From positions 1-58,968 of IMG/VR virus record IMGVR_UViG_3300025889_000133: a DNA stretch of 58,968 bases. One strand, written 5' to 3'. The position numbers and the translations under genes are program-made. The DNA comes from a virus. The notes beneath the pieces were generated by a model. The model saw only the letters and a program-made list of their open reading frames with translations, was not told the origin of the DNA and did not search any database. Numbering within the stretch: position 1 is the first letter of the stretch; each line of letters opens with the position of its first letter. Below, one piece after another: positions 386-41,512 of the stretch.

Positions 386-415
386 GGTATAGCAGGGTTG
401 TTGCACCTCCTGCAA
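386..415 (-). promoter_or_regulatory. Sigma-70-like promoter for the 143-370 gene
   Basis: On the minus strand, TTGCAG (plus 410-415) and TATACC (plus 386-391) are separated by 18 bases. The -35 box lies inside the palindrome at 400-416. The -10 is preceded by GC, as in the two matching promoters near 29.2 and 32.9 kb. Confidence 0.6.
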
Positions 416-416
416 C
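400..416. promoter_or_regulatory. Operator candidate, GTTGC-N7-GCAAC palindrome (copy A)
   Basis: GTTGCA CCTCC TGCAAC is a perfect inverted repeat. It covers the -35 box of a leftward promoter and ends 8 bases before the -10. The same arm sequence and spacing occur at 29175-29191, 32924-32940 and 41496-41512. Confidence 0.6.
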
Positions 417-437
417 GGGTAACGCGCGCGCCGCCGA

Positions 438-1193
438 TCAGTGGCTGAAGAAGACGATGTGGGGGCCGTCGACCCCAGCGTCGCAGAGCCTGCAGGTGTT
501 GCAGGTCACCTTCGGCAGCCCCGCGTTGGCCCCACGGAGCTTCTGCACCTGCTCCGGGCAGCCGATGGCGGTCTTGCCCCCGATGCGGGTCGGGGCATCT
601 TCGAGCCGCTTCACCTCGAGCGCCACCTTCCATCCGCTGCGGGCCAGCTCATGAGCCTTTCCCACGTCGAAGGTGACGCTGGCGAGGCAGCTATCGCGCA
701 GCCACGGCGCAGCCTCGGCGTTGTGGGTGTAGCTCAGCAACGCCATCTGCCGAGGGCCTCGGCGAGTGACGACGCTCGTGCTCCGCACCTCGTGGGCCAG
801 GTCCCGCATCTGCTCCTGGGTCAGGGCGCTGGGGTCGCCGATCCAGCCGAAGCGCACGGCCGCCGCAGCGCGACTTGCTGCTTGTAGTGCTCGGCGCAGG
901 CCGCTGACGCCGTAGCCGCCGTCGTAGTTCTCGGCGCCGACGCGCCGCTCCTTCTTCACGGCCGCGGCGACGGCCATGCCACCGTGACCTCGGAAGGCGT
1001 AGCAGCCACCGACCTCCCCGCCGCGGGTCTTGGGCAGCCTGGGGCAAGCCGCCACCTTGCACGCCTCGGCAGCAGCGTCGATGGCCCGCAGCGCCGCGAA
1101 CTCGAGCGACGAGCCGAAGGCCACCTGGGGGATGTTGCTGGTCTTGCCGTTCTCGCTCTGCGCGACGGCGAAGCTCTCGAACCGGGCGCTCAT
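438..1193 (-). CDS. Hypothetical phage protein with a C-terminal Cys cluster (251 aa)
   Basis: The protein resembles in layout a widespread family of unknown phage proteins (the DUF7227 type, by my recollection): an N-terminal Cys pair region, a central GWIGDPSALT segment, and a C-terminus with GCPEQ then CNTCRLC (about residues 216-238) ending near IVFFSH. The Cys spacing suggests a zinc or metal site. Its start overlaps the stop of the upstream gene as ATGA (1190-1193). Function is unknown and the family assignment is from memory only. Confidence 0.85.
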   Translation of the reverse strand: MSARFESFAVAQSENGKTSNIPQVAFGSSLEFAALRAIDAAAEACKVAACPRLPKTRGGEVGGCYAFRGHGGMAVAAAVKKERRVGAENYDGGYGVSGLRRALQAASRAAAAVRFGWIGDPSALTQEQMRDLAHEVRSTSVVTRRGPRQMALLSYTHNAEAAPWLRDSCLASVTFDVGKAHELARSGWKVALEVKRLEDAPTRIGGKTAIGCPEQVQKLRGANAGLPKVTCNTCRLCDAGVDGPHIVFFSH

Positions 1194-1483
1194 GCGTCGG
1201 CCTCGAGGTAGGCCAGGGCCTTGTGCACGAGGAAGCTGACGCCCGCCCGGACCATGTAGCGGCCCTCGTACAGACGCACTGTGTAGACGATGGCGAGCCT
1301 CGGCTTGCGAGGGACACCCGCCAGCACGAGGTAGCTGTCGTCGCGCTCGACATGGCGCCAGCTACAGATCTGACCGATGTCAAAGCCCGTTGCGGGGTGG
1401 AACGCGGCGAGCAGCGGCTCAGGCAGCTGCGGCATGCGCGCTGCCAAGCTCTGCAGCGCGAGACTGATATCTGAGGTTGTCAT
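1190..1483 (-). CDS. Hypothetical protein (97 aa)
   Basis: The start at 1483 (MTTSDISLAL) is chosen because AGGAG lies 8-9 bases upstream. The longer frame to 1591 has no ribosome site and an Arg/Pro-rich, non-protein-like N-terminus. The product has alternating beta-type stretches (LAIVYTVRLYEGRYMVRAGV). It is not recognised. It is coupled to the following gene by ATGA. Confidence 0.85.
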   Translation of the reverse strand: MTTSDISLALQSLAARMPQLPEPLLAAFHPATGFDIGQICSWRHVERDDSYLVLAGVPRKPRLAIVYTVRLYEGRYMVRAGVSFLVHKALAYLEADA

Positions 1484-6036: not shown

Positions 6037-7455
6037 CTACTCCTTGGTCACAGACAGGGTCAGCACTGCGGCCTCCAGCACGTGGCTGAGCCCGACAGCG
6101 CCAGCTCCTTCGAGTCGAGCGATGGTGAGCGCCACGGGCATGACCGCCGCGAGACCCGCCTTCAGCTTGAACGGATCTCTGGTCTCCATGTCGGAGACTG
6201 CCGGCTCCGGCATCTCCCGAGCGAGCTCGACCCGGCGCTGCACGTCAGCACTGCACTCGCCGGGCTCGCCCCACACGAGTCTCTCCAGCGAGATCGTGTC
6301 GAGGTGCACGACCATCTCGATGCCCAGCAGCCGGCGCACGTCGTCGAGGCGCCGGCGCCATCGCTCGAGCGTCTCGAAGCTGCAGGTGCATGCCCGCTTG
6401 GTACTACCTGCGAAGCCGCACGGACACGGCGCAGCGGCCGCCACCAGGTGGAACTTCGACGGCATCGTGACGGTGCCGGCAGCCCGAGTCTTCGTGATGC
6501 TGCCATCGGTCGCGGCTCTCGCAACGAGCTCGAGCACGTCTCGCCGGAACTCGGTGACCTCGTCGAGGAAGAGCACGCCGGTGTGGGCCAGCGAGACCTC
6601 GCCAGGGCGGAAGTTCGCAGCGCCGACCATACCTGCGGCGCTCACCGTGTGGTGCGGTGCGCGGAAGGGGCGCTGCGAAGTCAGCGGTGCGCCCGGGGCG
6701 CGCAAGCCGGCGGCGTCGTGGACCCGCGCCGTGTCGATCATCTCCTCGACGGTCAGGCGCGGGAGGATGCCGGGCAGGCGGGCGGCGAGCATCGTCTTCC
6801 CGCAGCCCGGCGGGCCGACGAGGAGCAGCCGGTGCCCCCCGGCAGCGGCGATCTCGAGGGCGCGGCGCGCCTGATGCAGCCCGCGGATGTCGGCCATGTC
6901 GAGCTGATGCTGCAGCTTCTCGTAGCGAACGCCCATCGAGGTCTCGCCCTTCCCGGTCAAGGCCAGGACGGAGTCGCTCAAGTTGCGGCAGGCGCGCGTG
7001 ATGCAGTTCGCTTGTGCAGCCACGCTGTCTGCGGCTTCGGCGGCCACGATGGCGCAGCCGGCCTCAGCTGCGGCCGCGGCCTCGCCTGCCTGCAAAGCGC
7101 CGCGGAAGCCACGGAGCTCGCCGTCCAGGCTGAGCTCTCCGGCTGCGAAGACCGGCGTGTCGGGGAGCTGCACCTGACCACTCGCCGCGAGCACCCCCAG
7201 AGCGATGGGCAGGTCGTAGTGGGTGCCGTCGTGACGCATGCCGGCGGGCGGCAGGTTGATGACGACGCGCTGTCGTGGCCACTCGAAGCCGGATGCCGTG
7301 ACAGCGGAGCGCACCCGCTCGGAGGTCTCCCGGACGGCGCTGGCCGGCAGGCCGACGATGACGGTGGCGGGCAGGCGGCGCAGCAGGTCGACCTCGACGG
7401 TGACCAGGTGGCTGTCGACGCCGATGAGGGTGAAGGTGTAGACGGTGGTGGTCAT
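6037..7455 (-). CDS. comM: ComM/YifB-family AAA+ ATPase (Mg-chelatase-like), probable branch-migration helicase
   Basis: The 472-residue protein has the full ComM layout. An N-terminal Lon/S5-like domain (residues 10-165) contains VIVGLPASAVRETSERVRSA and VINLPPAGMRHDGTHYDLPI. The AAA+ core has Walker A GPPGCGKT (214-221), the family signature RPFRAPHHT (262-270), Walker B VLFLDE (294-299) and a CPCG...CTC cysteine patch (344-358). The C-terminal lid ends VALTIARLEGAGAVGLSHVL. Bacterial ComM (about 500 aa) is a hexameric helicase that drives branch migration when incoming DNA is integrated during transformation. The protein is about 30 residues shorter, mainly in the C-terminal domain. GAGGA precedes the start. 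Phage carriage is unusual. A role in recombination-linked replication is inferred. Confidence 0.9.
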   Translation of the reverse strand: MTTTVYTFTLIGVDSHLVTVEVDLLRRLPATVIVGLPASAVRETSERVRSAVTASGFEWPRQRVVINLPPAGMRHDGTHYDLPIALGVLAASGQVQLPDTPVFAAGELSLDGELRGFRGALQAGEAAAAAEAGCAIVAAEAADSVAAQANCITRACRNLSDSVLALTGKGETSMGVRYEKLQHQLDMADIRGLHQARRALEIAAAGGHRLLLVGPPGCGKTMLAARLPGILPRLTVEEMIDTARVHDAAGLRAPGAPLTSQRPFRAPHHTVSAAGMVGAANFRPGEVSLAHTGVLFLDEVTEFRRDVLELVARAATDGSITKTRAAGTVTMPSKFHLVAAAAPCPCGFAGSTKRACTCSFETLERWRRRLDDVRRLLGIEMVVHLDTISLERLVWGEPGECSADVQRRVELAREMPEPAVSDMETRDPFKLKAGLAAVMPVALTIARLEGAGAVGLSHVLEAAVLTLSVTKE

Positions 7456-13926: not shown

Positions 13927-14601
13927 TCAGTCCTCCAGGCCGAGCAGGAAGCGCGCCTGCGCCTCCATCCCGGCGTTGTTGATGTCGGCAGCCTCGGCCG
14001 CCTTGGCGTCGTGGACGCGCTCGTCGAGGATCTCCTGCATCTCCTCGTCGTTGCTGTAGTCGTCGAGCGAGCCGCGCAGGTCGGCGAGGTAGGTGCCGAT
14101 GCGCTCCTCATCGGAGGGCTCCGACGGCGGCTGCCGAAGCGAGGCGCGGCGCTCCATCAACCACGAGCTGGTCGAACACCACTCGATGTCGTCCTTGGTG
14201 ATGAAGCAGGCGCAGCCACCGAACTCGCCCTGTCGCATCTTCGAGCAGGTGACCGCCGCTTCGACCTCGATGAAGGTTGTCTCCAGGAAAGGCAGCCACT
14301 GCCGGAGCACCTCGGCATGCTCGCAGCCGAAGCCGTTCTCGAAGTAGGCGTAGTCCTCGCCGTCGCCTTCGAGGCAGTAGGTGATGTCGGAGAATGCCTG
14401 CTCGTAGTCGTCGTACAGGCAGGCGTCGCCGTCGTTGTAGTCGACCCAGTCGGCGAGGATGAGCCCGAGATCCTGCGCCTCGCGCAGCACCTCGATGTCG
14501 TGGTACGCTCCTCGACAGAGCTTGGCAGCCACCTGGCGGTGCGCCTCGCTGGTCCACTTCAGGTACGGGCTCACGGTTGCTTGCGAATAGTTGTCGGCCA
14601 T
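13927..14601 (-). CDS. Acidic hypothetical protein (224 aa)
   Basis: It begins MADNYSQATV and is strongly acidic throughout, with aromatic clusters (WVDYNDGDACLYDDYEQAFS) and several Cys in the middle. Such acidic phage proteins sometimes mimic DNA, but nothing here proves that. The start has GAGGAGTAGACG upstream. Confidence 0.85.
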   Translation of the reverse strand: MADNYSQATVSPYLKWTSEAHRQVAAKLCRGAYHDIEVLREAQDLGLILADWVDYNDGDACLYDDYEQAFSDITYCLEGDGEDYAYFENGFGCEHAEVLRQWLPFLETTFIEVEAAVTCSKMRQGEFGGCACFITKDDIEWCSTSSWLMERRASLRQPPSEPSDEERIGTYLADLRGSLDDYSNDEEMQEILDERVHDAKAAEAADINNAGMEAQARFLLGLED

Positions 14602-16923: not shown

Positions 16924-17213
16924 GATGCCTCCAGGTCTGCGAGCTGGTCTCGCACCTCGCGCGCCAGGTCGAGGCTGTTGCTGCGGCGGTCCAGGGTCAC
17001 GACGGCCCAGTGCCGGTAGCCGTAGGCGCCACCGGTGAAGGAGTTGTCGCCGGTCTGCCAGCCGAAGCATGGGCTGCCGGGATCCCAGCCGACGGTCACG
17101 GTCATGGACGGGAAGGAATCGTCCTCGCAGCCTTCGGCGCGGTACTCGTCACCGATGTGGGCCTTGAGGTCGATGAAGAGCTGGCGCAGGGCGCGCAGCG
17201 ACGGGAGCTTCAT
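16920..17213 (-). CDS. Hypothetical protein (97 aa)
   Basis: It begins MKLPSLRALRQLFIDLKAHI with a helix, then a Gly/Asp-rich beta middle, then helix (LDLAREVRDQLADLEAS). The ribosome site GGAGACTGAC is good. Not recognised. Confidence 0.85.
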   Translation of the reverse strand: MKLPSLRALRQLFIDLKAHIGDEYRAEGCEDDSFPSMTVTVGWDPGSPCFGWQTGDNSFTGGAYGYRHWAVVTLDRRSNSLDLAREVRDQLADLEAS

Positions 17214-17214
17214 G

Positions 17215-17523
17215 TCAGTCTCCTGCGATGGTGATGTTGGACCAGTCCTCGGGCGTCATCTCAGCGCCGTCGTGGCGGAAGACGGCCCGCGCCCGGTGTC
17301 TCGCCGGGTCCGCCCCGTAGAGCACGGCTTCCCAGTAGGTGTCGCCGAGCGACCGCAGGTCGATCTGCAGGAACCCGGCGCGCTTCACGTGCGGGCCGAG
17401 GTCGGCGAGCCGCGGGAACAGCGGGGGCTGCAGGGCTTCGACACCGCAGCCGGGGCACGGCAGGGTGCTGCCGTCGGACTGTTGACGATGGGCCACACGG
17501 CCGCAAGCGATACAGACGATCAT
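17215..17523 (-). CDS. Zinc-ribbon protein (102 aa)
   Basis: An N-terminal zinc ribbon CIAC (residues 4-7) and CPGC (23-26) is followed by a C-terminal alpha/beta region ending EDWSNITIAGD. Ribosome site weak. Not recognised beyond the ribbon. Confidence 0.8.
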   Translation of the reverse strand: MIVCIACGRVAHRQQSDGSTLPCPGCGVEALQPPLFPRLADLGPHVKRAGFLQIDLRSLGDTYWEAVLYGADPARHRARAVFRHDGAEMTPEDWSNITIAGD

Positions 17524-17526
17524 TCG

Positions 17527-17655
17527 CTACTCCAAGTCAGTCATGCGGGTGGCGTACACTGCGCCGGGGTAGGCGCTGTTGGTGTCGCCCTCCCACACCA
17601 GGCCGGCGGCCTCGGGGGCGACACCGGCCGCGATGTCGTCGATGGTGAGCATCAT
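17527..17655 (-). CDS. Small hypothetical protein (42 aa)
   Basis: The translation is MMLTIDDIAA, then GVAPEAAGLVWEGDTN, ending RMTDLE and TAG. AGGAG lies 8 bases before the first ATG at 17655. It fits the 3-base spacing to the next gene. Unknown function. Confidence 0.65.
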   Translation of the reverse strand: MMLTIDDIAAGVAPEAAGLVWEGDTNSAYPGAVYATRMTDLE

Positions 17656-17666
17656 GAGGGGTGCTC

Positions 17667-17729
17667 CTACCAGTCGTGGACGACAGAGCCGTCCTCGTTG
17701 CGCTCGGCGTCGAAGTCAGCCTCGGCCAT
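17667..17729 (-). CDS. Possible 20-residue miniprotein
   Basis: MAEADFDAER followed by NEDGSVVHDW is encoded after a strong GAGGGAGACGACG site. It overlaps the end of the upstream gene by 14 bases. The ribosome site supports translation. It could instead be a leader that affects its neighbours. Confidence 0.45.
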   Translation of the reverse strand: MAEADFDAERNEDGSVVHDW

Positions 17730-19818: not shown

Positions 19819-20147
19819 CATCCACCTCCGAGGAGGCGCCGGGCCTCCTGCTCGTTGAGCATGCTGCGCACGACGCGTCGTCGGTTCTGGTACTTCTCGC
19901 CGGTGTGCTCGTAGCACACGCCGAGACCGTTCATGTGGGGCTTGCCGAGCTGGTGCCCCGTGATCTCCCACTCGACCCAGCGGGTGCCGGGCGCAGGCGG
20001 AGTCAGCCGCTTGCCCGAGAGGCTGTCCTCGATCCAGCAGAGCAGCCGACCCTGGTACTCGGGCACATTCTCGTGCTCGTGCTGCCACGTGCGGTGCACG
20101 GTGCCTCCGGGGAACATCACCGTGGTCTGAACACACCAGTCGCTCAT
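19818..20147 (-). CDS. Hypothetical protein (109 aa)
   Basis: The start at 20147 (MSDWCVQTTV) follows GCAGGAGGTACGCG, a near-perfect site. Beta-rich N-terminus, basic helical C-terminus (KYQNRRRVVRSMLNEQEARR). Not recognised. Confidence 0.85.
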   Translation of the reverse strand: MSDWCVQTTVMFPGGTVHRTWQHEHENVPEYQGRLLCWIEDSLSGKRLTPPAPGTRWVEWEITGHQLGKPHMNGLGVCYEHTGEKYQNRRRVVRSMLNEQEARRLLGGG

Positions 20148-22455: not shown

Positions 22456-22458
22456 GGG

Positions 22459-22869: not shown

Positions 22870-22872
22870 CGT

Positions 22873-23118
22873 TCACTCCTTTAGTTCTGTCGTTACGTAC
22901 TCGTCCCATCCGCCGCCGGGGTATCCCCGTGGGCGAACGTTCACGTTGAACCCGTGACGAGCAGCCAGCCGCCGTACGGTGCGGCAGGCCGAGTGCCCGT
23001 CCTGGTAGCCGCAGACGCGAGCGACCACGAGCCAGCTCCACCCTGCGTTGTAGAGGGCAGCTCCGTCTCGTGCGTCCTCGATGGCCTCCGCTGTCGTTAC
23101 GCCTGGACGGCGGCCCAT
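22873..23118 (-). CDS. Possible helix-turn-helix protein (81 aa)
   Basis: Residues 10-52 (TAEAIEDARDGAALYNAGWS, then VVARVCGYQDGHSACRTVRR) have the spacing of a helix-turn-helix of the resolvase/transposase type. A Gly/Pro-rich tail follows. It could be a small DNA-binding regulator. The start at 23118 directly follows the upstream stop (TGA-ATG). Confidence 0.7.
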   Translation of the reverse strand: MGRRPGVTTAEAIEDARDGAALYNAGWSWLVVARVCGYQDGHSACRTVRRLAARHGFNVNVRPRGYPGGGWDEYVTTELKE

Positions 23119-25639: not shown

Positions 25640-25730
25640 CATCGGCTCCTGTTGTCGGCTCGCTGGGGCCGACGTGTGACCATCGCGCAGGGGCAGCGGA
25701 CCATCCCGCTTCCCGCGCTCCCAGGCCACC

Positions 25731-25754
25731 CACCTGCGTTGCCAGTCGCAGGTG
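25731..25754. repeat. Inverted repeat, 8-bp arms
   Basis: CACCTGCG-TTGCCAGT-CGCAGGTG is perfect. It lies 92 bases upstream of the 25639 start codon and could be an operator or an RNA hairpin in the leader. Confidence 0.6.
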
Positions 25755-25806
25755 AGCGCTTCGGCACACGAGACATGCTGGCTGGCCTCGTGCTGCGCTC
25801 GTGCCT

Positions 25807-25824
25807 TGCAGTCACATGACTGCA
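25807..25824. repeat. 18-bp near-perfect palindrome
   Basis: TGCAGTCA-CA-TGACTGCA has fully complementary arms around a 2-base centre, the form of a dimeric regulator site. It lies upstream of the leftward array. Confidence 0.6.
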
Positions 25825-26040
25825 CCTCTCGGGGGAGGGGAAGCATTCTCGGAGACCTTGGCACCCCTGCGACAGCAGGCAGGCGGCAGCGCGTCCGCTC
25901 CCCCGATGGGCGGGCGGGCCCCCAAAGCCGGGTGTTCTTGGCGCGTGGCCGGCGTCACGCGGGAAGGTCAATCACACATGGCGCACCTCTTGGTGGTGGG
26001 GGTGTTCGCGTACGGTCGTGCACTGCTGCGGGCACCTGGT

Positions 26041-26079
26041 ACAGTGTTTCACGTGTTTCATTTTCGCGTGAGACACTGT
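26041..26079. repeat. Long inverted repeat, 13-bp arms
   Basis: ACAGTGTTTCACG (26041-26053) and CGTGAGACACTGT (26067-26079) are complementary except for one position, around a 13-base centre. Size and place suit an operator, origin element or hairpin. Confidence 0.65.
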
Positions 26080-26145
26080 AAGTGCTTGGAATCCTGTTCG
26101 CGGATCCGTTGTTTTATACCGAGTGCACACCAATGGAGGATTTTT

Positions 26146-26241
26146 GTGGCGAGCGGAAAAAAGAGGGGACCTCCTCGGGGGGTTTGTTCGCTTACGGCTC
26201 GCCGGATGGCTCCGAAGTGCAACCAGTATTTAGAAGTATAA
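26146..26241 (+). CDS. Possible 31-residue peptide, GTG start
   Basis: GTG 26146 follows ATGGAGGATTTTT, an excellent ribosome site. The product MASGKKRGPPRGVCSLTARR-MAPKCNQYLEV is basic and stops inside an AT-rich palindrome. It faces opposite to the flanking genes. It could be a true small peptide, a leader, or the remnant of a longer gene. Confidence 0.4.
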   Translation: MASGKKRGPPRGVCSLTARRMAPKCNQYLEV

Positions 26242-26256
26242 CTAAGTATAGTTATA
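26237..26256. repeat. AT-rich palindrome
   Basis: TATAACT-AAGTAT-AGTTATA is a perfect inverted repeat with 7-base arms, the most AT-rich spot of the window. It could be a strand-opening element or a promoter cluster. Confidence 0.5.
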
Positions 26257-26287
26257 AGATTACTGATTGCTGCTGCTGCGGCGGTTG

Positions 26288-26310
26288 GCGCGGCCCTTCG
26301 TGGGCCGCGC
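26288..26310. terminator. GC hairpin, terminator-like without T-tract
   Basis: GCGCGGCCC-TTCGT-GGGCCGCGC forms a 9-bp stem. No run of T follows on either strand, so termination would be inefficient or factor-dependent. Confidence 0.4.
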
Positions 26311-26419
26311 TGCCGTGGTTGTAGCCCCCGGCGGGGTAAGCCGAAGCCGAGAGGGGGAGGTGGCGCAACACTGGGGCAGGGCTGCGCCGTAAGTAGCTGA
26401 ATATGCGGGGGGTAAGGCA

Positions 26420-26439
26420 ATATGCAATATAGTGCATAT
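26420..26439. repeat. Palindrome nested in a larger stem
   Basis: ATATGCA-ATATAG-TGCATAT is perfect and lies inside GGTAAG (26411-26416) and CTTACC (26443-26448). CGCTTAC (26441-26447) also pairs with GTAAGCG (26473-26479). These give alternative folds. Confidence 0.5.
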
Positions 26440-26479
26440 ACGCTTACCGTGATGCACATTGTATGCGCGGGAGTAAGCG

Positions 26480-27034
26480 TTACCGGGACAGCTTGTGGCG
26501 GATCTCGCTGTAGTCCTGCCACGCGGCCTCACTACGGCCCGCCGCCAGAGCAGACCCCCAAGGTGACACACGCATGCGGACCTGGGGATCGACAGTCGCC
26601 CCCTCCCACGAAGACACGCGCGCTGGCGTCGTCGTAGAGGTTGCGCCGCTGCGGACTACGATGCGCTTCCGCTCGCACATGGTACGCAGAGCCGCATCCA
26701 TGAGCGTACCGACGTGCCCCTGCGGTAGCGCGATAGTCAGGGTCACTACGTCATCCCCCTTCGGCATGGCGCGGGCAACCCCCGCCCACGAGCGAAGCTC
26801 GCCCGCCGCCTCCCCTGCCAGGCGCGCGCGCTCCGCCCATGCCTCGTTGTCCTGCACGTCCTGCGCCGCCCGCGCCAAGTGCGGCGCGCGGTCCTTCCTC
26901 GCATGCGCCAAGCGCAGAGCGGCCCCTTCGGGATCCCTGACTTGGGCCCTACACTCCGCCGCCCCCTGCGCGAGCAGGTCACACGCAGAGAGCAGCACGG
27001 CGCGAAGCTGCGCCGGCGTCGCTTCGATTACCAT
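26480..27034 (-). CDS. Hypothetical Ala/Arg-rich protein (184 aa)
   Basis: The start at 27034 (MVIEATPAQL) follows CCAGGAGGGGTGCGTA. Helical N-terminal two-thirds with Ala/Arg/Glu, then a strand-rich portion (DVVTLTIALPQGHVGTLMDA) and a polar tail. It stands alone between two gene-poor stretches, which suggests its own promoter. No domain recognised. Confidence 0.75.
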   Translation of the reverse strand: MVIEATPAQLRAVLLSACDLLAQGAAECRAQVRDPEGAALRLAHARKDRAPHLARAAQDVQDNEAWAERARLAGEAAGELRSWAGVARAMPKGDDVVTLTIALPQGHVGTLMDAALRTMCERKRIVVRSGATSTTTPARVSSWEGATVDPQVRMRVSPWGSALAAGRSEAAWQDYSEIRHKLSR

Positions 27035-27144
27035 TACGCACCCCTCCTGGTTGCACTTTCGCTCTATCTGTTGACCCTACGCGCGGGCACACCCCTTCGA
27101 TGGGCTGGCGCGTAGTCGGAGCCGAAAGCAAAGACATAAGCATA

Positions 27145-27173
27145 GGGCCAGGGCAGCTTAGCTGCCCTGGCCC
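27145..27173. terminator. Perfect 13-bp hairpin, possible terminator
   Basis: GGGCCAGGGCAGC-TTA-GCTGCCCTGGCCC folds into an uninterrupted stem. On the minus strand it is followed by TATGCTTATGTCTTTG, moderately T-rich, so it could end leftward transcripts entering from the island before the 27034 gene. Confidence 0.6.
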
Positions 27174-28148
27174 ATTCGGGTTTGGCGAGCCCAGCAACGG
27201 CGCGAGGGCGCCGATACCAGCTTGACCGTGGGTTATCCCCGCGGCCCCTGTCATCGCCCGCTAGGGCTCTGGTTCGAAGCTGCAATATCGACCAATGGGC
27301 TCCCCGTATCGTTTCCGGATCATGGCCCATTGTTCCCTCGTGGGTGCGCCGTTGCGGGGCCCACCTACACTGTCGGCTTCGGGATAGCCGACGATAGCGA
27401 CCGATCGCCGTTGTCAATGGCGACGCGCTATCTGTTTATGTGTGTGAATACCGTTCAAACGACCGCCGCCGGTATCCTACCCGGTACGCTACGCCGTTTC
27501 GTCGCTTCACCCTACTGTATGTGAGGCGGTATTGGCGTCTATCCGTCGAGACGCGCTACCCACCGCCGATCCTTTGCTACCCGCGCCACGATCCCGCTTC
27601 CTGCCCTCTGGTTCCTTTCACCGGGAGCGCCGGGGCCGCGGGCTACTGCCACCATGGGGGCCGCCTACGCTTGTGAAGGGGGCGCCCATGGCGCGGGGTA
27701 GCTGCTACCGCCGTCGCTGAGGGAGGGGGGGTCGTGGGGGGTGTCAAAGGGCGCAAGCCGACTACCTGTCGCCGACCCTCGGGGGCTACCTCCGGGGCGA
27801 CGGATCCCGCTATCGAGCGGCCGAGTGGACCCTTGGGTGATGCCATAGGGCGCGCACGTCGAGACCCGGATCCCCACTGGTGTCCCGGGCGACAGCTACA
27901 GAGGACGGAGGGAGGGCTTACCGGGTAGTCGCGCACGGGGCGGAAAGTGACGCGTCGTCGCTTGCCGTGGCGTTACTGCCTTCCTCCTCCCGTGCGCCGA
28001 CATAGGGGCCGAAGCCCTTGCTGCGGGTGGGGGGCGGATCAGATCACCAGACAGGGGACACCGTCCGCTATGCCGCGGAGGAGGCGCCTGTCTGTACGGG
28101 TAGGGGCTGAAAAAGACCGAAGGGGGCCGAGCGGGGGTTAGCCGTCCG

Positions 28149-28192
28149 CCCTCTGAGGAGGACCAGGGAGTCCCCTGGTCCTGCACAGAGGG
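28149..28192 (-). terminator. Nested hairpin downstream of the coiled-coil gene
   Basis: An outer stem CCCTCTG/CAGAGGG encloses AGGACCAGGG-AGTC-CCCTGGTCCT with a perfect 10-bp inner stem. It starts 8 bases beyond the stop of the 28200-28835 gene, the right place for its terminator. A T-tract is absent. Confidence 0.55.
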
Positions 28193-28199
28193 CAGCGGG

Positions 28200-28835
28200 C
28201 TACCAACCGCCGACCTTGCGGGAGGCCGCCTTGCGCCGCGCGCCCGGGACAGGGATCGAAGCGTTCCGACCGCGGAGGTGACTGTCCATCGCGGACAGCG
28301 CCTCCCCGTGGGAGCGGTTGCTGCCGTTGACGGCGACGGCGGCCGCGATCGCGTGGGTGATCGCCTCCTGAGCTTCCTGGTAGCTGGGCGCCGCGGTGAT
28401 CAGGCGGAGGATTGCGGCCTTGACGGCGGTACGCTCCGCGCCGACCGTGGAACCATCGAAGTAGGCGATCGCGCTCTTGCCTTCATCGGGGAGGTAGACC
28501 AGGAACGCAGGATCGGCGGGGAGCGCGGAGCGGGCCTCGTCCTTCCCCAGCTTGGCGCCGACGCGGTAGCGGCCGATCATGCTGGCGACGGCGGGATCGG
28601 CGGGATCGGCGGAGGGGGCCACGGTGTCCAGGGTGGCCCGGAGGTTGGCGATCGTGTCGTCACGATCGGCGATCGTCGCCAGGAGGGCGGCGATCGTGGC
28701 GTCGCGGTCGGCGATCGTCGCCAGGAGGGAGACGGCGTCGGTGTTGGTGTCGGTGTCGGCAGGGGCCGGCGCCACGTCGACGACGACGGGGGCGGAGGGG
28801 GCGGAAGCGGCGGTGGTGCTGGTCTTGCGGGACAT
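28200..28835 (-). CDS. Coiled-coil protein (211 aa)
   Basis: After a Thr/Ala/Pro-rich N-terminus, residues 36-70 repeat a 14-residue unit (LLATIADRDATIAA, LLATIADRDDTIAN), typical of a parallel coiled coil. The DNA repeats as well (21 identical bases at 28667-28687 and 28709-28729). A globular alpha/beta part follows (FLVYLPDEGKSAIAYFDGST) and the C-terminus is basic. AGGATGACCCG precedes the start. Function unknown; an oligomeric DNA-associated protein is a guess. Confidence 0.75.
   Translation of the reverse strand: MSRKTSTTAASAPSAPVVVDVAPAPADTDTNTDAVSLLATIADRDATIAALLATIADRDDTIANLRATLDTVAPSADPADPAVASMIGRYRVGAKLGKDEARSALPADPAFLVYLPDEGKSAIAYFDGSTVGAERTAVKAAILRLITAAPSYQEAQEAITHAIAAAVAVNGSNRSHGEALSAMDSHLRGRNASIPVPGARRKAASRKVGGW
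28667..28729. repeat. Direct repeats encoding the coiled-coil unit
   Basis: Two identical 21-base copies, 42 bases apart (start to start), encode the LLATIADRD heptads. Unequal exchange between them could change the coiled-coil length by 14 residues. Confidence 0.7.
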
Positions 28836-29174
28836 CGGGTCATCCTACGGGGTGCGGGGCCAGGGGAGATCCGTGGCCACGGCAGGAATGTACTACCGCG
28901 CTATGGCGCTGGCAAGGCGGTACGCGCAACCCTACCCCGAAAGGAGAAGGAACGCGCGCGAGGCAGCCTGGCAGCCCGGCAGGGGGGCAGCTCGGCAGCT
29001 CGATCGCGGCGGGGGGTTCCGCCAGGCGGCCGACGGAGGGGGGGTCGGCCAGGATGCCGGTGCCGCCGTGGTCGTAGCTGAGGGGGAGGGGGCATTCCGC
29101 CCGCGCGGGACGTGACCGCTACGCGTGGTGCCCCAAAAATCCGCAGCACCTCCCGCCCCTCCCACCATTTATTC

Positions 29175-29191
29175 GTTGCGCGCCACGCAAC
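29175..29191. promoter_or_regulatory. Operator candidate, GTTGC-N7-GCAAC palindrome (copy B)
   Basis: GTTGCG-CGCCA-CGCAAC is a perfect inverted repeat. It covers the -35 of the rightward promoter and ends 8 bases before its -10, the same register as copy A. Confidence 0.6.
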
Positions 29192-29205
29192 CAGCATGCT
29201 ACTCC
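29176..29205 (+). promoter_or_regulatory. Promoter for the 29.2 kb rightward unit
   Basis: TTGCGC (29176-29181), an 18-base spacer and TACTCC (29200-29205) preceded by GC. The -10 is weak, but the arrangement equals that of copies A and C. Confidence 0.5.
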
Positions 29206-29229
29206 TCACCCACACTCCAGGTGCCAGCC

Positions 29230-29823
29230 ATGGACCGCTACACTCTCCGCTCCCTCCGCCGCCTTCGGGGCCCCCTCGTGCGGGACCCTATCCTCTGTAT
29301 GATCGTCCCGGCGCACTACACCCAGCAGCGCCTGGCCGAGGGGGGCGTGGTCGTTCGCCGCTTCCCCCTGCCACCGCCGCAGCGCATCGTCGAGATGGAC
29401 ATCGCGCAGGCGGCGCCGGCTCACGCTCCGGAGAACCCGCTCGAGTTCCGCGAGTTCGTGATCCGCCGCTGGCGCTACGCCGAGACCTTCCTCGTGCCGA
29501 CCACGGATGTGCCGCGCATCACGGCCGGCGCCATGGAGCGCAAGATGGACTGCACCGTCGCCGACCAGAGGTTGCCCGGCGCCTCCCTTGGGGAGATGTC
29601 GCGGTTCCTCCGTCGTCTGGGCTACGCCCCCAAGCGGATGCGCGTCTCGGAGATCCACCGGCTGTACCGGCGCAGGGCGGCGAAGTCGCGCATCACGCTG
29701 GCGATGTGGTGCATCGGTGACTACGACCACGGCAACAAGCTCGTCATGACCTGCGGCGACGACACCTGGTGGCACCTGTGCTGCCCGCTCGCTCTGCCCA
29801 GCAACGCGGCGGAGTCCCCGTGA
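29230..29823 (+). CDS. Hypothetical basic protein (197 aa)
   Basis: The ATG at 29230 (MDRYTLRSLR) follows CCAGGTGCCAGCC. Basic and Pro/Arg-rich in the first 60 residues, then alpha/beta with RYAETFLVPTTDVPRITAGA. Near the end, TLAMWCIGDYDHGNKLVMTC has paired Cys. First gene of the rightward middle unit. Not recognised. Confidence 0.75.
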   Translation: MDRYTLRSLRRLRGPLVRDPILCMIVPAHYTQQRLAEGGVVVRRFPLPPPQRIVEMDIAQAAPAHAPENPLEFREFVIRRWRYAETFLVPTTDVPRITAGAMERKMDCTVADQRLPGASLGEMSRFLRRLGYAPKRMRVSEIHRLYRRRAAKSRITLAMWCIGDYDHGNKLVMTCGDDTWWHLCCPLALPSNAAESP

Positions 29824-30077: not shown

Positions 30078-30751
30078 AGACCGATGAAGCGGCGCTGCAA
30101 CCGTCGCTGCGCCCTGGGCCGCAGCTCCCGATGGTGCTGCCACACGCTGTCGTCTTCGCCAACGGCGACCACGCCTACATCGTTCGTCACCGCGACGCGA
30201 TCGGCGACTTCTTCTGCCTGCGCACCCTGGCCGAGCTCGAGCAGTTCTACTCCGAGCTCGAGGGGCAGCCGCATCGTGCCGAGCTCGCCGCCGGAGGCTC
30301 TCGCTGGGCAGCTGCCGACGAAGCTGTCGCTGATGGCATCGTCGCGCAGCGGAGCGACTCGCACCCGCGGCTGGTGTGGGCGCAGAGCGTCGGCATCGAG
30401 CGGCCGTTGCCGGGTTGGCGCGATGGTCGTGGCTTCGCAGGCTGCAGCTCCTGCGAGAAGCACCAGCGCTACCGCGGCTACGAGCCGACCGCCATCACGG
30501 GCGACTGGCAGACCGACCCGCCGCTCGCAACCGCTCGCCGGCTGCTGACCGACCCGGCACACGCGCCGATCGCGCTCGATGACGCCAACACCTCCACGCA
30601 GGCCGTGTTCATGCTTGCCCGAGGCCCGCGGCAGCACGCCCACGGGATCACCATCTCGTGCCCGGTCCGGCGGCTGGCCTCCGGGCGCATCGCCCTCGAG
30701 GCCATGGCCCGTGAGCTGGCGAAGCAGATCCACGAGGCGCGCCTGGCTTGA
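30074..30751 (+). CDS. Hypothetical protein (225 aa)
   Basis: ATG 30074 overlaps the Tat-protein stop as ATGA and follows GGGAGGCTGCC. Alpha/beta with FAGCSSCEKHQRYRGYEPTA in the middle and a helical Arg/Ala-rich C-terminus. Not recognised. Its last codons overlap the -35 of the next promoter. Confidence 0.85.
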   Translation: MKTDEAALQPSLRPGPQLPMVLPHAVVFANGDHAYIVRHRDAIGDFFCLRTLAELEQFYSELEGQPHRAELAAGGSRWAAADEAVADGIVAQRSDSHPRLVWAQSVGIERPLPGWRDGRGFAGCSSCEKHQRYRGYEPTAITGDWQTDPPLATARRLLTDPAHAPIALDDANTSTQAVFMLARGPRQHAHGITISCPVRRLASGRIALEAMARELAKQIHEARLA

Positions 30752-30777
30752 CTGCCTATGATGGCTCTCGCTATCAT
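30748..30777 (+). promoter_or_regulatory. Promoter with palindrome, upstream of the ribbon-helix-helix-like gene
   Basis: TTGACT (30748-30753), an 18-base spacer and TATCAT (30772-30777) make the best sigma-70 match of the window. ATGATGG-N6-CTATCAT (30758-30777) is an inverted repeat with one mismatch that covers the spacer and -10, a likely operator. Confidence 0.65.
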
Positions 30778-30804: not shown

Positions 30805-31224
30805 ATGGCCGCTGAAGTCCTGGAAATGATGTCGCTGCGTCTGACCGAGGAGTCGGACGTGGCTGCACTCGACGCGCTCGTCGGGCGCTTCGGCTCACCG
30901 TCTCGGGTCGAGGCCGTCCGTGAGGCCATCCGTCGGGTGGCTGCCGAGGCGCCGATGCCGGCCGACGTGATGCTCTGGTACAAGGGCAAGGATGGCGTCG
31001 CAGCGCGGCTGTTCGCCACCGAGATGCACCAGGGCCCGATGACGGCGCTGGCCGCGCTCGAGCGCGCGGTGGCCTTGGAGAAGCGCGGCTTCGCCGTGCG
31101 CGCAGAGCAGATGCCCGAGCTGCCGGCGAGGCTGCGGCCGCATGCTGATGCCGAGGAGCTCTGCCAGGCCTGTGGCTGCGCTGCCGATGACCACGACGAG
31201 AGCTGCAAGCGCGGTGCACGATGA
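30805..31224 (+). CDS. Ribbon-helix-helix-like protein with Cys tail (139 aa)
   Basis: The ATG at 30805 has GGAGG 10 bases upstream. An earlier TTG (30748) lies in the promoter and is rejected. MMSLRLTEESDVAALDALVG, then SPSRVEAVREAIRRVAAEA has the strand-helix-helix pattern of CopG/Arc-type regulators. The rest is helical, and the C-terminus CQACGCAADDHDESC may bind zinc. A palindromic promoter lies directly upstream, so autoregulation is plausible. Confidence 0.7.
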   Translation: MAAEVLEMMSLRLTEESDVAALDALVGRFGSPSRVEAVREAIRRVAAEAPMPADVMLWYKGKDGVAARLFATEMHQGPMTALAALERAVALEKRGFAVRAEQMPELPARLRPHADAEELCQACGCAADDHDESCKRGAR

Positions 31225-32908: not shown

Positions 32909-32924
32909 CGGCGGCCCCCCGCCG
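32909..32924 (+). terminator. Possible terminator ending the 29.2-32.9 kb unit
   Basis: CGGCGG-CCCC-CCGCCG forms a 6-bp GC stem followed by TTGCGTCTT. The short, interrupted T-tract makes it moderate at best. It abuts the next promoter. Confidence 0.45.
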
Positions 32925-32940
32925 TTGCGTCTTGAGCAAC
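32924..32940. promoter_or_regulatory. Operator candidate, GTTGC-N7-GCAAC palindrome (copy C)
   Basis: GTTGC-GTCTTGA-GCAAC overlaps the -35 box and ends 7 bases before the -10. Same arms as copies A, B and D. Confidence 0.6.
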
Positions 32941-32953
32941 ACTGCGCTACCCT
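32925..32953 (+). promoter_or_regulatory. Promoter for the morphogenesis unit at 32.98 kb
   Basis: TTGCGT (32925-32930), 17-base spacer and TACCCT (32948-32953) preceded by GC. A strong ribosome site and GTG start follow 24 bases downstream. Confidence 0.55.
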
Positions 32954-32977: not shown

Positions 32978-33751
32978 GTGCCCACTCCGATCGTGACCAA
33001 CCCCTCTGCCCCCGCGCCGCGCGGTGGGCCTCCCCCCCAGGCCGCCGCCTTTCTGATGGACCACCAGCAGGTCTACGCGGACCTTCTCACGAGCAGCCTG
33101 CCCCACCCGCTGCTCACCGTGGCGATCTACAGTCTGCTCGTCTCCAACAACGACATCGCGGCGGCGGGTCACGCCGCCGGCGACACCAACGTCGTCTCGA
33201 GCGCGCTGCAGGTGATGGAGGCCATTCTCACCAACGAGCCGTCGCTGGCCGACATCGCCAGCGACAGCCCCGAGATGTACATCGGCAGGGTGTGGCTCCT
33301 CATCGACCTCGAGGTCATGACGTCGCTGCTCCCCGCTTCGATGCTGACCCCCGAGCTGGTCACCACGATCATCGAGGTGGGGGAAGTGCTGCGCCAGCGC
33401 GATGCTCTGGAGAGCCGCATCGGAGCCGGCCAGGCGCCGACCGTGGTGCAGGCAGCCCCGAGCCACCCCAACCTCTCCCCTGCTGCAGCAGCGCTTCGCG
33501 CGAAGGCGCTGGGGGGAGCCGCTCCCCGCCAGGAGAGCGTGGGGGCGCCTCGCGGAGCTCCGCTGCAGGGCTTCGCCCGTCTGGCTGAGCCCGCGCCCGC
33601 AGACTCCTCCGAGCACGTGGATCTCGATGGCTCGGACCGCGTGAAGCGCGTCCTCGCCGCACTCGGCGAGGAGTTCGACGAAGCCGACCCCAATGCGCTG
33701 AGCGCTGCCCTGCGGAGGCGGATCCAGCACACCCACCCCCAGCAGCAGTAG
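32978..33751 (+). CDS. Hypothetical protein, GTG start (257 aa)
   Basis: The GTG at 32978 follows AAGAAGGAGCTGCTCC. A Pro-rich N-terminus precedes a helical hydrophobic domain (YADLLTSSLPHPLLTVAIYS, WLLIDLEVMTSLLPASML). The C-terminal part is acidic and Ala/Pro-rich. It starts the rightward unit leading to the convergent portal gene. Not recognised; a virion assembly factor is possible. Confidence 0.8.
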   Translation: MPTPIVTNPSAPAPRGGPPPQAAAFLMDHQQVYADLLTSSLPHPLLTVAIYSLLVSNNDIAAAGHAAGDTNVVSSALQVMEAILTNEPSLADIASDSPEMYIGRVWLLIDLEVMTSLLPASMLTPELVTTIIEVGEVLRQRDALESRIGAGQAPTVVQAAPSHPNLSPAAAALRAKALGGAAPRQESVGAPRGAPLQGFARLAEPAPADSSEHVDLDGSDRVKRVLAALGEEFDEADPNALSAALRRRIQHTHPQQQ

Positions 33752-33758: not shown

Positions 33759-34550
33759 ATGGGCCTGTTCCGCCGCTCTACAGCTTCGCAGGTAGCTCCG
33801 GCTGCGCCGGCTCCCGCAGCCGCAGCCGCAGCCGCAGCCGCAGTCGCAGTCGCAGTCGCAGCCGCAGCGCCCCCGCCTGCGCCTACAGAGCGCCGGGTCT
33901 CGCTGGTCCTGCCGGGTGATCTGGCGGACCGGGTGGAAGAGCTGCGACAGCGGCTCAACTCCAGTGCCTTCGCCCAGCGCACTCGCCGGGAGGTCACCTT
34001 CGAGGAGGCCGTCCTGTGGGCGCTGTACGATGGGGTCTCGCCGGCGGAGGCTGTCGCGGCGCCGCCGCCTGCCACTCCGGTGGGGTTCGAGCCAAGGCCT
34101 GCAGCTGCGCCTGCGGCTGCGCCTGCAGCTGCGCCTGCAGCTGCGCCTGCGGCGGCGTCGGCTGCGGGCTTGGTGATCTCCGAGCCCTCGGCGGCTGCTC
34201 CCACTCCCACGACACCCCGGGCTCCGACTCGGATGTTCCTCCCCGACGGTGACCGCTGCATCGAGGCGGATGCGGCCGCGGTGGCCTCCTACGTCTACCG
34301 GGGCTGGCGTCGCTTCCTGCGAACGGACAAGAGCACTGGGATGGCCTTCCAGTGCTTCTGGTGGCCCCACGCCGACCGGGACCCTGGCCAGCTGGAGCCC
34401 AGGGCGGTGCGCCTGCCCTCCGACCATCGGTTCGACGGAGTGGTCGACGTGCTGCCCGCCTTCCCCCACGATGCTGCCAGCGTCAAGCCAGGCTTCGGCG
34501 CAGGAGGTGCGGGAGCGGCCCCGCAGCTGGTGCTTCATGTCCCGAACTGA
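33759..34550 (+). CDS. Protein with Ala/Pro low-complexity linkers (263 aa)
   Basis: Two disordered linkers, Ala/Val-rich at residues 14-42 and Pro-Ala-Ala repeats at about 105-140, separate folded parts. One contains RRVSLVLPGDLADRVEELRQ, which looks like a ribbon-helix-helix or small helical domain. The other is YVYRGWRRFLRTDKSTGMAF near the C-terminus. The linkers are encoded by simple 6- and 12-base repeats. Ribosome site weak. Unknown function. Confidence 0.75.
   Translation: MGLFRRSTASQVAPAAPAPAAAAAAAAAVAVAVAAAAPPPAPTERRVSLVLPGDLADRVEELRQRLNSSAFAQRTRREVTFEEAVLWALYDGVSPAEAVAAPPPATPVGFEPRPAAAPAAAPAAAPAAAPAAASAAGLVISEPSAAAPTPTTPRAPTRMFLPDGDRCIEADAAAVASYVYRGWRRFLRTDKSTGMAFQCFWWPHADRDPGQLEPRAVRLPSDHRFDGVVDVLPAFPHDAASVKPGFGAGGAGAAPQLVLHVPN
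33816..33868. repeat. Hexanucleotide tandem repeat
   Basis: About nine copies of GCAGCC, three of them as GCAGTC, encode the Ala/Val linker of the 33759-34550 protein. Likely prone to slippage. Confidence 0.75.
34099..34151. repeat. 12-base tandem repeat
   Basis: Units of CTGCAGCTGCGC (some CTGCGGCTGCGC) encode repeated Pro-Ala-Ala-Ala in the second linker of the same protein. Confidence 0.7.
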
Positions 34551-39288: not shown

Positions 39289-39299
39289 GTCCGTGGCTC

Positions 39300-41474
39300 C
39301 TATGCGTCGCCAGTGATGCCCCAGGCTATCGCGTCAGGATCGTACAAGCTGCGCACGCCTTCCGGCGTGGCTCCTACACGATTCGCTTCCTGCTGGGCGA
39401 GGGCCTCCAGCATCTTCGCCGCAGTGATGCCTTGCGCCCCGCCGGCGAAGAGGGGGGCGAGCTCCTGGTCCATCTCAGCCGCAGCGCGACTGCGCAGGGC
39501 GCTGATGATGGCGGAGGCGCTGACGAGCTCCTGTCGCAGCGCCGCCTCCTCCTCCGTGTCCTTGCGGGGCAGGCGGAACACGGTGGTGACGAAGATGTCG
39601 GCGGCGATGACGTAGCATCTCGCTTGGTCGAAGTGGTGGCGCGCGCCGGTGTTGTCCGCGCGCTTCTGTCGCGGCTTCCAGTCGCCGTTGTACTGCGCCA
39701 GCTCGAGCAAGCCGCTGCGGCTCCGCAGCTTGTGCCTCCGGCTGCGGAGGCCTTCCGCGAGTCGGGCGGTGCCCTGTTCGATGCTCGACTGCGTCGCCTT
39801 CCACCCCGGCAGCCCGTCGGTGTCGTACCAGATCGGGTGTACGTTGCGGTCGCGCAGGACGGAGATGGTGCCGCCGGCCCGCTCCAAGGCGATGGCGCAG
39901 GGGAACTCTGCGGAGGGGGAGTAGAGCTTCTGCACCGCGACGATGATGTCCGCCATCTGCTCCGGCAGCACCTGGCCGCGCCACGCTGCCACCTCGTGAC
40001 CGTCCCGAGCGCGGAGCACCACCAGGGCGGAAGGGTCGCCGCTGCCCCGCTTTGAATAGCCGGCGGTGTCGGCGATGAGGACGTACATCTCGTCGACCGA
40101 CGGCTCGTCGAAGATCTCCGCTCCGTAAGGGCCCTCCCGAAGCGCTGGGCGCTGGTCGGCCTCGGCGAGCATGTCGGCGATAGCGTCGGCCGGCATGAGG
40201 GTGTTCCCCCCACCGAGCCACCCGTGGTAGGGGCTGGGGGGGTACTTGCTGTCGAACTTCGGGTAGCTGCCGCGGAAGGTCGACACCGTCTCCAGCCGGC
40301 GGAACATCAGGTGCCCGTCGCTGATCCTGCTGGCTTCCTCACTGAGTCCCGCGGACTGGGAGTAGCGGTAGATGATCTCTGCAAGCCGCTCCTCCTCCTC
40401 CGTCCGCTTGAAGTCGGGGGGGACGTCCGCCTGAAGAGGCTCCAGCCGCCACCAGGGGACGAAGATGGGGTGGAACCGCCCCTGGTTGTCGAGGGCAGCG
40501 AACCACTTCTGCTGGTGGTCGCTGCCGAAGGCCCCCCACGTGGACTCCAGGAATACCTGGGCGTTGCCACGCTGGTTGAATGCGGGGAAGACGTTGCCGG
40601 CCGCCCGGGTCTGATCGAGGATCTCCCCCCACTCACTCAGGATGATGCGGTCCACGGCGTGGCCGATACCTGCCGTCGGGCCCCCCAAGCTGATGACCTT
40701 GATGAAGCCCCCGTGGAGAAAGGTCATGCGGCGCTCGCTCCCCGACTTCTGCGACTGGTCGAGGGGCACGCGGAGGCACTTCGGCAGGTGGCGGTAGGCG
40801 AGGCGGATCCGTCGGAACAGCTCGGTGGCGACTGCGTCGCTGTTGGCGGCGATGACGCACTGCAGCCCGCGGAAGTACATCGCGTCGCGCAGGATGATGG
40901 CGAGCGACAGCACAGTCGACATCATCGCTTGGCGGCACTTGCCCACGATGTGCCACTGGTCCAGCCGGGAGGGCTCGAGCCCGAGCTCCTCCACCGCAGC
41001 GAGGCGCTCTTCCGCGGGCAGCGCGCGGATGGCGTTGAGCGCGTGGGTGCGCATCACCACCGCTTCCTGCCAGGGCGTGGGGTCGGCCAGCCCGAGGTTC
41101 TCCGGGGCTTGGTCCCCCAGCGGGTCGCGCTTCTGCAGCTTGTTGATGGTGCTCAGGCGGAAGAAGGCGGTGGGGTGGTTGAGCGCGTCCAGGATCAGGG
41201 TGTAGTCGAGGTGGGCCGTCTGCTCTTCGTGGTCCGGGTCGTCTCTGTCCGGATCGAAGATGTAGACTTCAGCGTCCGGAGCGTACAGGCACGACAGGGG
41301 GTGGCGGGGCGGCATCTCAGGGCTGTCGAGGCCTACCACCAGGGGGCGAGAGTGCAGTTTGCCGAAGATCGGGTCCGCGGGATCCAGCGCGCGCCGGACC
41401 AGGACGTCGAGTGGGTGGATGTGACTACGATCGGCGACGACGCCTTCCGCGGAGATGCCGAGCTCGGCTTCCAT
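39300..41474 (-). CDS. terL: Terminase large subunit (724 aa)
   Basis: The ATPase has a variant Walker A GKCRQAMMST (residues 179-188; other phage terminases have KxRQxGxST), Walker B DRIILSEWGE (275-284) and the coupling motif ESTWG (310-314). The RNase H-like nuclease follows with Asp469 in IADTAGYS, Glu531 in ALERAGG and Asp616 in HHFDQA as the likely metal ligands. It packages DNA through the portal encoded 11 bases downstream. At 724 residues it is longer than most TerL proteins, with an unusual N-terminal extension of about 130 residues. GGGAGACTCG precedes the start. Confidence 0.9.
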   Translation of the reverse strand: MEAELGISAEGVVADRSHIHPLDVLVRRALDPADPIFGKLHSRPLVVGLDSPEMPPRHPLSCLYAPDAEVYIFDPDRDDPDHEEQTAHLDYTLILDALNHPTAFFRLSTINKLQKRDPLGDQAPENLGLADPTPWQEAVVMRTHALNAIRALPAEERLAAVEELGLEPSRLDQWHIVGKCRQAMMSTVLSLAIILRDAMYFRGLQCVIAANSDAVATELFRRIRLAYRHLPKCLRVPLDQSQKSGSERRMTFLHGGFIKVISLGGPTAGIGHAVDRIILSEWGEILDQTRAAGNVFPAFNQRGNAQVFLESTWGAFGSDHQQKWFAALDNQGRFHPIFVPWWRLEPLQADVPPDFKRTEEEERLAEIIYRYSQSAGLSEEASRISDGHLMFRRLETVSTFRGSYPKFDSKYPPSPYHGWLGGGNTLMPADAIADMLAEADQRPALREGPYGAEIFDEPSVDEMYVLIADTAGYSKRGSGDPSALVVLRARDGHEVAAWRGQVLPEQMADIIVAVQKLYSPSAEFPCAIALERAGGTISVLRDRNVHPIWYDTDGLPGWKATQSSIEQGTARLAEGLRSRRHKLRSRSGLLELAQYNGDWKPRQKRADNTGARHHFDQARCYVIAADIFVTTVFRLPRKDTEEEAALRQELVSASAIISALRSRAAAEMDQELAPLFAGGAQGITAAKMLEALAQQEANRVGATPEGVRSLYDPDAIAWGITGDA

Positions 41475-41495
41475 CGAGTCTCCCGTGGGGTGGTC

Positions 41496-41512
41496 GTTGC
41501 GGGGTGAGCAAC
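41496..41512. promoter_or_regulatory. Operator candidate, GTTGC-N7-GCAAC palindrome (copy D)
   Basis: GTTGC-GGGGTGA-GCAAC has the same arms and spacing as copies A-C, but no -10 follows in the same register. It lies 22 bases before the terminase start codon, so it could block leftward initiation or the transcript start. Confidence 0.55.

Follow-up and report, generated by a model that had tools for sequence, protein, structure and literature searches.

A dispersed palindrome in a phage genome as the probable operator of a phage-encoded XRE-type repressor

Why should one 17-bp palindrome, GTTGC-N7-GCAAC, recur at widely separated intergenic points of a viral genome? The question is raised by the window analyzed here, the whole 58,968-nucleotide stretch of IMG/VR virus record IMGVR_UViG_3300025889_000133, in which exact matches lie at 400-416, 29175-29191, 32924-32940 and 41496-41512. 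A sequence-only reading of the window had placed four exact copies outside genes at these positions and had expected well below one copy by chance. Both statements were borne out, the first by a pattern scan with our own gene calls, which use shorter starts, and the second by 100 dinucleotide shuffles of the window, which gave a mean of 0.06 exact copies and never more than 1. We consider it probable that the palindrome is the operator of an autoregulated, phage-encoded repressor of the XRE (Cro/CI) type, likely a 108-residue protein, whose sites are dispersed genome-wide. The predicted operator nature of the palindrome is well supported and the choice of the 108-residue candidate as its regulator moderately so, while binding and the sign of regulation (repression) are what we infer from sequence.

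The window is contained in a longer IMG/VR record, IMGVR_UViG_3300006802_000078 (91,625 bp), reached through the protein encoded at window 45450-47597. It corresponds to bases 20715-79682 of that record with 664 ungapped mismatches, 655 of which fall within one 1-kb bin. The bin is window 22000-23000, and this suggests small insertions and deletions that cancel out. Since the two records are essentially the same virus, their comparison gives no test of conservation and the window is unusable as a second, independent genome. The longer record adds 32.7 kb beyond the window and carries two further exact copies there, making six, which are named by record coordinate as A (12709), B (14362), C (21114, window 400), D (49889, window 29175), E (53638, window 32924) and F (62210, window 41496).

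When GTTGC and GCAAC were paired at all spacers from 0 to 25 in the 91,625-bp record, six pairs were found at spacer 7, one at 18 and none at any other. Many copies inside genes would, according to the sequence-only reading, have spoken against a set of control points; by our gene calls, which leave about 8.8-9.0% of the record noncoding, all six are noncoding, and the genome thus holds several near-identical intergenic sites, three of which hinge on the choice of start codon. Among 5+5 inverted repeats with spacers of 0-20, this palindrome is the commonest in the noncoding DNA of the record, with 6 copies against 3 for the next best, and a first-order Markov model of the noncoding DNA gave a mean of 0.007 copies and at most 1 in 2000 trials. 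With coding DNA counted, other GC-rich halves give 6-9 copies in the record, so the signal is carried by the restriction to noncoding DNA and by the promoter context. A scan allowing one mismatch, as had been proposed, added three copies in the window (6509, 31321 and 44872), where the shuffles predicted 1.72 matches in all; these one-mismatch copies are near chance. The window contains no Rfam or tRNA match.

Five of the six copies overlap predicted promoters, in which the TTGC of the palindrome would form the -35 box and a -10-like box follows on the strand of the next gene. Read toward that gene, copy A gives GTTGCACGCTGCGCAAC-N8-TATAAC, copy B GTTGCACTTGACGCAAC-N7-TACGCT, copy C (minus strand) GTTGCAGGAGGTGCAAC-N8-TATACC, copy D GTTGCGCGCCACGCAAC-N8-TACTCC and copy E GTTGCGTCTTGAGCAAC-N7-TACCCT. 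The spacer from TTGC to the -10-like box is 17 (B, E) or 18 (A, C, D), and the palindrome spans about -37 to -21, centered at about -29, at a nearly fixed distance from the -10. A -35 in TTGC and a -10 box 7-8 bases beyond the palindrome had been proposed for the copies at 400, 29175 and 32924, and both were found there on the strands named. The further proposal, a regulator-controlled promoter set, is strengthened by the same geometry at the held-out copies A and B (GCAAC-N8-TATAAC and GCAAC-N7-TACGCT), while its division into early, middle and late classes gained no support as to timing. The probability of a TA at offset 7 or 8 is 0.0495 per noncoding strand position, and its presence in five of six copies has P = 1.7e-6 on the given strands and 4.6e-5 on either strand; the offsets were derived from the window copies, and the clean test is that of A and B only (two of two; P = 0.0024 on the given strands and 0.0093 on either). 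The features at copies C, D and E are as follows, with ORF standing for open reading frame.

400..416, minus strand: palindrome, proposed operator C (exact match).
386..415, minus strand: promoter-like TTGCAG-N18-TATACC over palindrome C (pattern scan), its edge 16 bases from ATG 370.
143..370, minus strand: 75-residue ORF downstream of operator C (own gene call; no PHROG match).
415, minus strand: TTG start of a longer version of ORF 143-370 in the ORF list, which would run over operator C.
29175..29191, plus strand: palindrome, proposed operator D (exact match).
29176..29205, plus strand: promoter-like TTGCGC-N18-TACTCC over palindrome D (pattern scan).
29230..29823, plus strand: first plus-strand gene behind operator D, 197 residues, with no Pfam match; the start (ATG 29230) was chosen after the promoter, the full frame is 29125-29823 and the automatic gene call began at 29299.
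32924..32940, plus strand: palindrome, proposed operator E (exact match).
32925..32953, plus strand: promoter-like TTGCGT-N17-TACCCT over palindrome E (pattern scan).
32978..33751, plus strand: 257-residue gene behind operator E (own gene call; no Pfam match).

A candidate for the protein that would read these sites was found at copy B. Immediately downstream of this copy lies a 108-residue ORF at 14016-14342 (minus strand) of the 91,625-bp record, which the automatic gene caller had shortened and which is about 6.4 kb upstream of window base 1, hence outside the window. Its product matches Pfam HTH_31 at 28.0 bits against a cut-off of 27 (E 2.8e-6; 28.4 bits in the whole-record search), with HTH_3 below its cut-off (14.4 against 23), and its PHROG matches are a transcriptional regulator (2.1e-05) and a repressor (4.2e-05). 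With an HTH_3/HTH_31-type domain just above the curated cut-off, the protein would fall within the XRE/Cro-CI family, and nowhere else in the record does HTH_31 match at E 0.05. XRE-type regulators are mostly repressors, and copy B would place a site at the candidate repressor's own promoter. From its sequence, the XRE gene under copy B is a better regulator candidate than the three DNA-binding proteins named in the sequence-only reading, which fared poorly: the product of 30805-31224 has a sub-threshold match to RHH_1 only (E 0.003), that of 33759-34550 has no Pfam or PHROG match, and that of 22873-23118, for which a DNA-binding role is possible, has no Pfam match and only phrog_645 (E 1.9e-4), a family to which another HTH-like protein of this phage also has a weak match. 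The -10 box of the XRE gene, TACGCT, ends six bases before the ATG, so that transcription starting at the normal distance would begin with the A of the ATG and the message would be leaderless. Leaderless mRNA is also known for lambda cI.

In the mechanism that we propose, a repressor dimer would bind the 17 bp and cover the -35 box, and the bound repressor would block the access of host RNA polymerase, carrying its main sigma factor, to these promoters. Through copy B, the XRE gene would damp its own synthesis from an mRNA starting at or beside the AUG; behind this gene lies a 421-residue ORF with a sub-threshold PD-(D/E)XK match. Copy A may control a minus-strand unit that begins with a 364-residue protein without Pfam or PHROG match and has replication genes farther along, namely a family A DNA polymerase, a Dda-like helicase and a DUF927 primase/helicase; gaps of 110-155 bp separate the genes behind this copy and could hold other promoters. 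Copy C, followed by a small gene and then others, would control a small-gene unit, copies D and E two plus-strand units without clear function, and copy F possibly the terminase gene. The XRE protein may serve as a lysogeny repressor or as a Cro-like shut-off within the lytic cycle.

The same palindrome was then sought in other phages by two IMG/VR scans, one with the dyad plus GCTA and one with a longer palindrome; of the 80 loci listed for each, 45 and 48, respectively, were counted across the whole record. Among the 45 of the first scan, the virus's own record had six copies; three each were counted in G044 (22 kb) and G004 (195 kb) and one or two in the rest, with a single copy in 35 of the 45 loci, as expected for chance matches. 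In G044 one copy separates an XRE repressor gene from a weaker XRE-like gene that diverges from it; G039 shows the same arrangement, provided that the shorter start of its repressor is right. G044 also carries a gene for GcrA (PF07750), a protein typical of Alphaproteobacteria. From the second scan, G059 has the dyad flanked by two divergent HTH_3 genes, and in G078 it stands before an HTH_3 gene; in these two (at 3854 and 39291, respectively) the palindrome, by eye, lies about 17 bases after a TTGACA, over the -10/start region. Identity with the G044 repressor is 42% for that of G039 and 41% for that of G078, and an alignment of the three, used as a scan query, returned seven loci (L282-L288). 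In five of these the palindrome is present exactly, starting 71-103 bp ahead of the matched stretch, counted from the start of the tblastn match. Three of the seven had originally been found through the dyad. Among the four chosen without it (L283, L286, L287 and L288), an exact dyad was present in L283 and L287, with 0.0005-0.00145 expected per 400 bp; L286 has three one-mismatch copies upstream and L288 none. As a separate observation, G093 holds six GTTGC-N7-GCAAC copies within 152 bp (7133-7284; L280:1134-1285), resembling an iteron array, and its HTH_3 match is 6.6 kb away.

Several points weigh against a repressor-operator system with the 108-residue protein at its center. At copies B (14362), C (400) and D (29175), an alternative, longer in-frame start puts the palindrome inside the ORF, so that the location outside genes depends on the shorter starts. 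Copy F (41496) has no -10 box at 7-8 bp on either strand, and its grouping with the other promoters in the sequence-only reading is poorly supported. On its plus strand, TAACCG lies 4 bases beyond the palindrome; on the minus strand the usual place has no TA, and TACACT directly precedes the dyad, with no good -35 seen for it on that strand. If TACACT were the terminase -10, dyad F would cover the start of the terminase transcript. At 68484, outside the window, one of the three TTGC sites counted below as lacking the exact palindrome starts with GTTGC, and a partner with two mismatches lies at spacer 8. The longest version of the G039 repressor ORF would overrun the palindrome, and the shorter start is assumed. 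A bulk test of the distance from palindrome to HTH_3 match (92 records with our own left out, 120 dyads, 64 HTH_3 matches) was weak. Within 150 bp there were 4 cases, with 1.26 expected (P 0.039); the 3 cases within 100 bp gave P 0.079 and the 4 within 300 bp P 0.14. The 108-residue protein has no significant BLASTP similarity to two of these other repressors, and against their profile it gave a weak match in the helix-turn-helix (HTH) region (hhalign probability 3.7%, P 0.011), so that shared operator recognition rests on analogy. Its single-sequence AlphaFold2 model is poor, with a mean pLDDT (predicted local distance difference test) of 63.3 and strands in the HTH region. The same virus also has other possible regulators, encoded at record 17129-17719 (HTH_23 below cut-off), at window 28200-28835 (weak PHROG match to a transcriptional regulator, E 0.0023, and no Pfam match) and at 30805-31224 and 22873-23118, described above. 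Finally, scans of IMG/VR and other collections yielded no close relative in which conservation of the sites could be followed, only the virus's own second record.

These scans of IMG/VR, by a method that picks up close relatives only, used the 45450-47597 protein, the terminase, the head protein, the DNA polymerase and the XRE protein, and returned the 91.6-kb record only; for the XRE protein, no homolog was found in the phage collection either. A genome-contig collection scanned with the head protein gave no match, and the phage collection gave none for the 26000-50000 stretch, the head protein or the head-tail-adaptor-like protein. For the terminase and the polymerase it held distant matches only, at 21-33% identity among the matches listed. 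The best polymerase relative, Rctr197k, has no exact palindrome and nine within one mismatch, against 17 for a reversed control, and in a 42.7-kb part of it no noncoding inverted repeat occurs more than once.

The first alternative, which we regard as unlikely, is that the palindrome is an activator site that replaces the -35 contact, in the manner of MotA or MerR, and defines a class of promoters switched on together. In phage T4, the activator box of MotA replaces the -35 element, and the position of the palindrome at a nearly fixed distance from the -10 in five copies would suit such a role. The pattern TTGC-N17/18-TANNN[TC], however, has 12 matches in the record, eight of them noncoding, compared with 8.8% noncoding DNA, and neighboring spacers gave noncoding/all counts of 0/1 (16), 0/2 (19), 3/4 (20), 1/4 (15) and 2/5 (14). 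Five of the eight noncoding matches carry the dyad (A-E) and three (41550, 28887 and 68484) have TTGC at the same spacing without the exact palindrome. TTGC may therefore act alone as a -35, and the fixed spacing would be explained without an activator; it looks like an ordinary -35 in this phage, with the dyad seemingly laid over a subset of the promoters, and because such sites occur without the exact dyad, the dyad is more readily seen as an operator than as an activator box. One copy, moreover, stands before an XRE-type gene, and other phages have the palindrome ahead of XRE repressor genes and, in G059 and G078, over the -10/start region. The promoter-like sites in the window that lack the palindrome, together with the features around copy F, are listed here. 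The sequence-only reading had set this copy between divergent terminase and capsid units, and the gene matches, weak for the head gene, agree.

41496..41512, no strand assigned: palindrome, proposed operator F (exact match), between the divergent terminase and putative head genes.
39300..41474, minus strand: terminase large subunit (PHROG phrog_2, E 1.2e-14), its start 22 bases from operator F.
41625..42692, plus strand: putative major head protein gene (weak phrog_9953 match, E 8.6e-05; ORF from 41595).
41550..41578, plus strand: promoter-like TTGCAC-N17-TAGCAT without palindrome (pattern scan), 47 bases before the head gene.
28887..28915, minus strand: promoter-like TTGCCA-N17-TACATT without palindrome (pattern scans), before ORF 28200-28835.
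30748..30777, plus strand: promoter-like TTGACT-N18-TATCAT without palindrome (pattern scans), before ORF 30805-31224.

A second alternative, which we hold to be quite improbable, would have a host regulator or the repressor of a resident prophage use the sites, with the phage XRE gene merely another target. The presence of the same palindrome before the XRE repressor genes of other phages, one of them with GcrA, is compatible with this; autoregulation, on the other hand, is the simpler account of six copies in one phage with one of them at its only HTH_31 gene. Very little credit is given to a third possibility, that the palindrome acts as an RNA or single-stranded hairpin promoter of the N4 virion RNA polymerase type. 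The repeat could form a 5-bp stem, the DNA polymerase matches include N4-like roseophages and an ORF of 4447 residues is present. Promoters of the N4 virion RNA polymerase are hairpins with a 3-base loop near -12, whereas the loop here would be 7 bases at about -29; the sole Pfam match above cut-off in the giant ORF is LPD23, and five of the copies precede the expected start and would be left out of the transcript, which speaks against a role as RNA. Chance, that is, a GC-rich palindrome happening to fall in gaps, is equally remote, for although other GC-rich 5+5 inverted repeats become as numerous once coding DNA is counted, all six copies of this one are noncoding, with 3 noncoding copies for the next best, the Markov model expected only 0.007 in noncoding DNA, and the held-out copies repeat the promoter geometry.

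Dispersed repressor operators, as read here, are already known in kind, and the instance in this phage is new; among the papers listed by one literature search aimed at the operator sequence, there was no report of a GTTGC-N7-GCAAC operator. As a positive control, an inverted-repeat scan of phiC31 (NC_001978) returned one palindrome in 15 copies, 14 of them noncoding, which we take to be the phiC31 repressor site. The two phages are alike in carrying many copies of one palindrome in intergenic DNA and differ in site sequence, in the size of the repressor (coding sequence 19274-21325 in phiC31, compared with 108 residues here) and in the integrase, which is annotated in phiC31; no tyrosine or serine recombinase was matched in the 91.6-kb record, which may be a fragment. 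According to PMC4557955, the phiC31 and L5 genomes hold 18-30 dispersed repressor sites, and the gp33 repressor of BPs binds five regulatory regions across its genome, with OR between the -10 and -35 of PR. The BPs operators described there consist of two half sites, one a 12-bp palindrome, whereas this phage has one 17-bp dyad per promoter. Also comparable are the temperate-like phages of L282-L288, whose XRE repressors share GTTGC-N7-GCAAC upstream in the five loci noted; these repressors differ in being about 200 residues long with a long C-terminal part, and G044, G039 and G078, counted whole, have two or three exact copies each, compared with six here. ClgR, an XRE-type regulator of Actinobacteria, offers a cellular parallel. 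The clpC1 promoter oligonucleotide used in ClgR gel shifts contains, according to PMC2905415, GTTCGC-N5-GCGAAC, which is likewise a 17-bp dyad with GTT/AAC ends; ClgR differs in being a cellular regulator of protease genes, and the inner bases of its dyad are others.

The repressor-operator reading would map control across the genome and offer a testable regulator in the case of a phage without a close relative in the IMG/VR protein scans. It also links one 17-bp palindrome to the XRE repressor genes of other phages, and cross-immunity via shared operators thereby becomes testable. One small XRE repressor might, through a single operator, govern replication, the small genes and perhaps packaging in a phage that measures at least 91 kb and has no detected integrase. 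Because this palindrome is paired in other phages with different XRE repressors, a prophage of that sort, if resident in the host, could then silence all six sites at once, a cross-immunity through a shared operator and not shared ancestry; this extension is a long shot.

Some further features of the genome were noted. The giant ORF of 4447 residues runs from window 54565 to the end (L017:279-13622 in the 91.6-kb record), and at window 54532-54567 a half site GTTGC is followed by GCTACGCT six bases before its ATG, resembling the start of the XRE gene; this may be another leaderless start. Window 25643-28199, 2557 bp in an otherwise dense genome, has no gene call by our own caller. Scanning of 71 small window proteins gave single matches to RadC, a pyrimidine dimer glycosylase and DUF3310, and window 6037-7455 (minus strand) encodes a YifB/ComM-type Mg-chelatase-like AAA ATPase, with a match to NCBIfam TIGR00368 above cut-off (E 4.6e-111).

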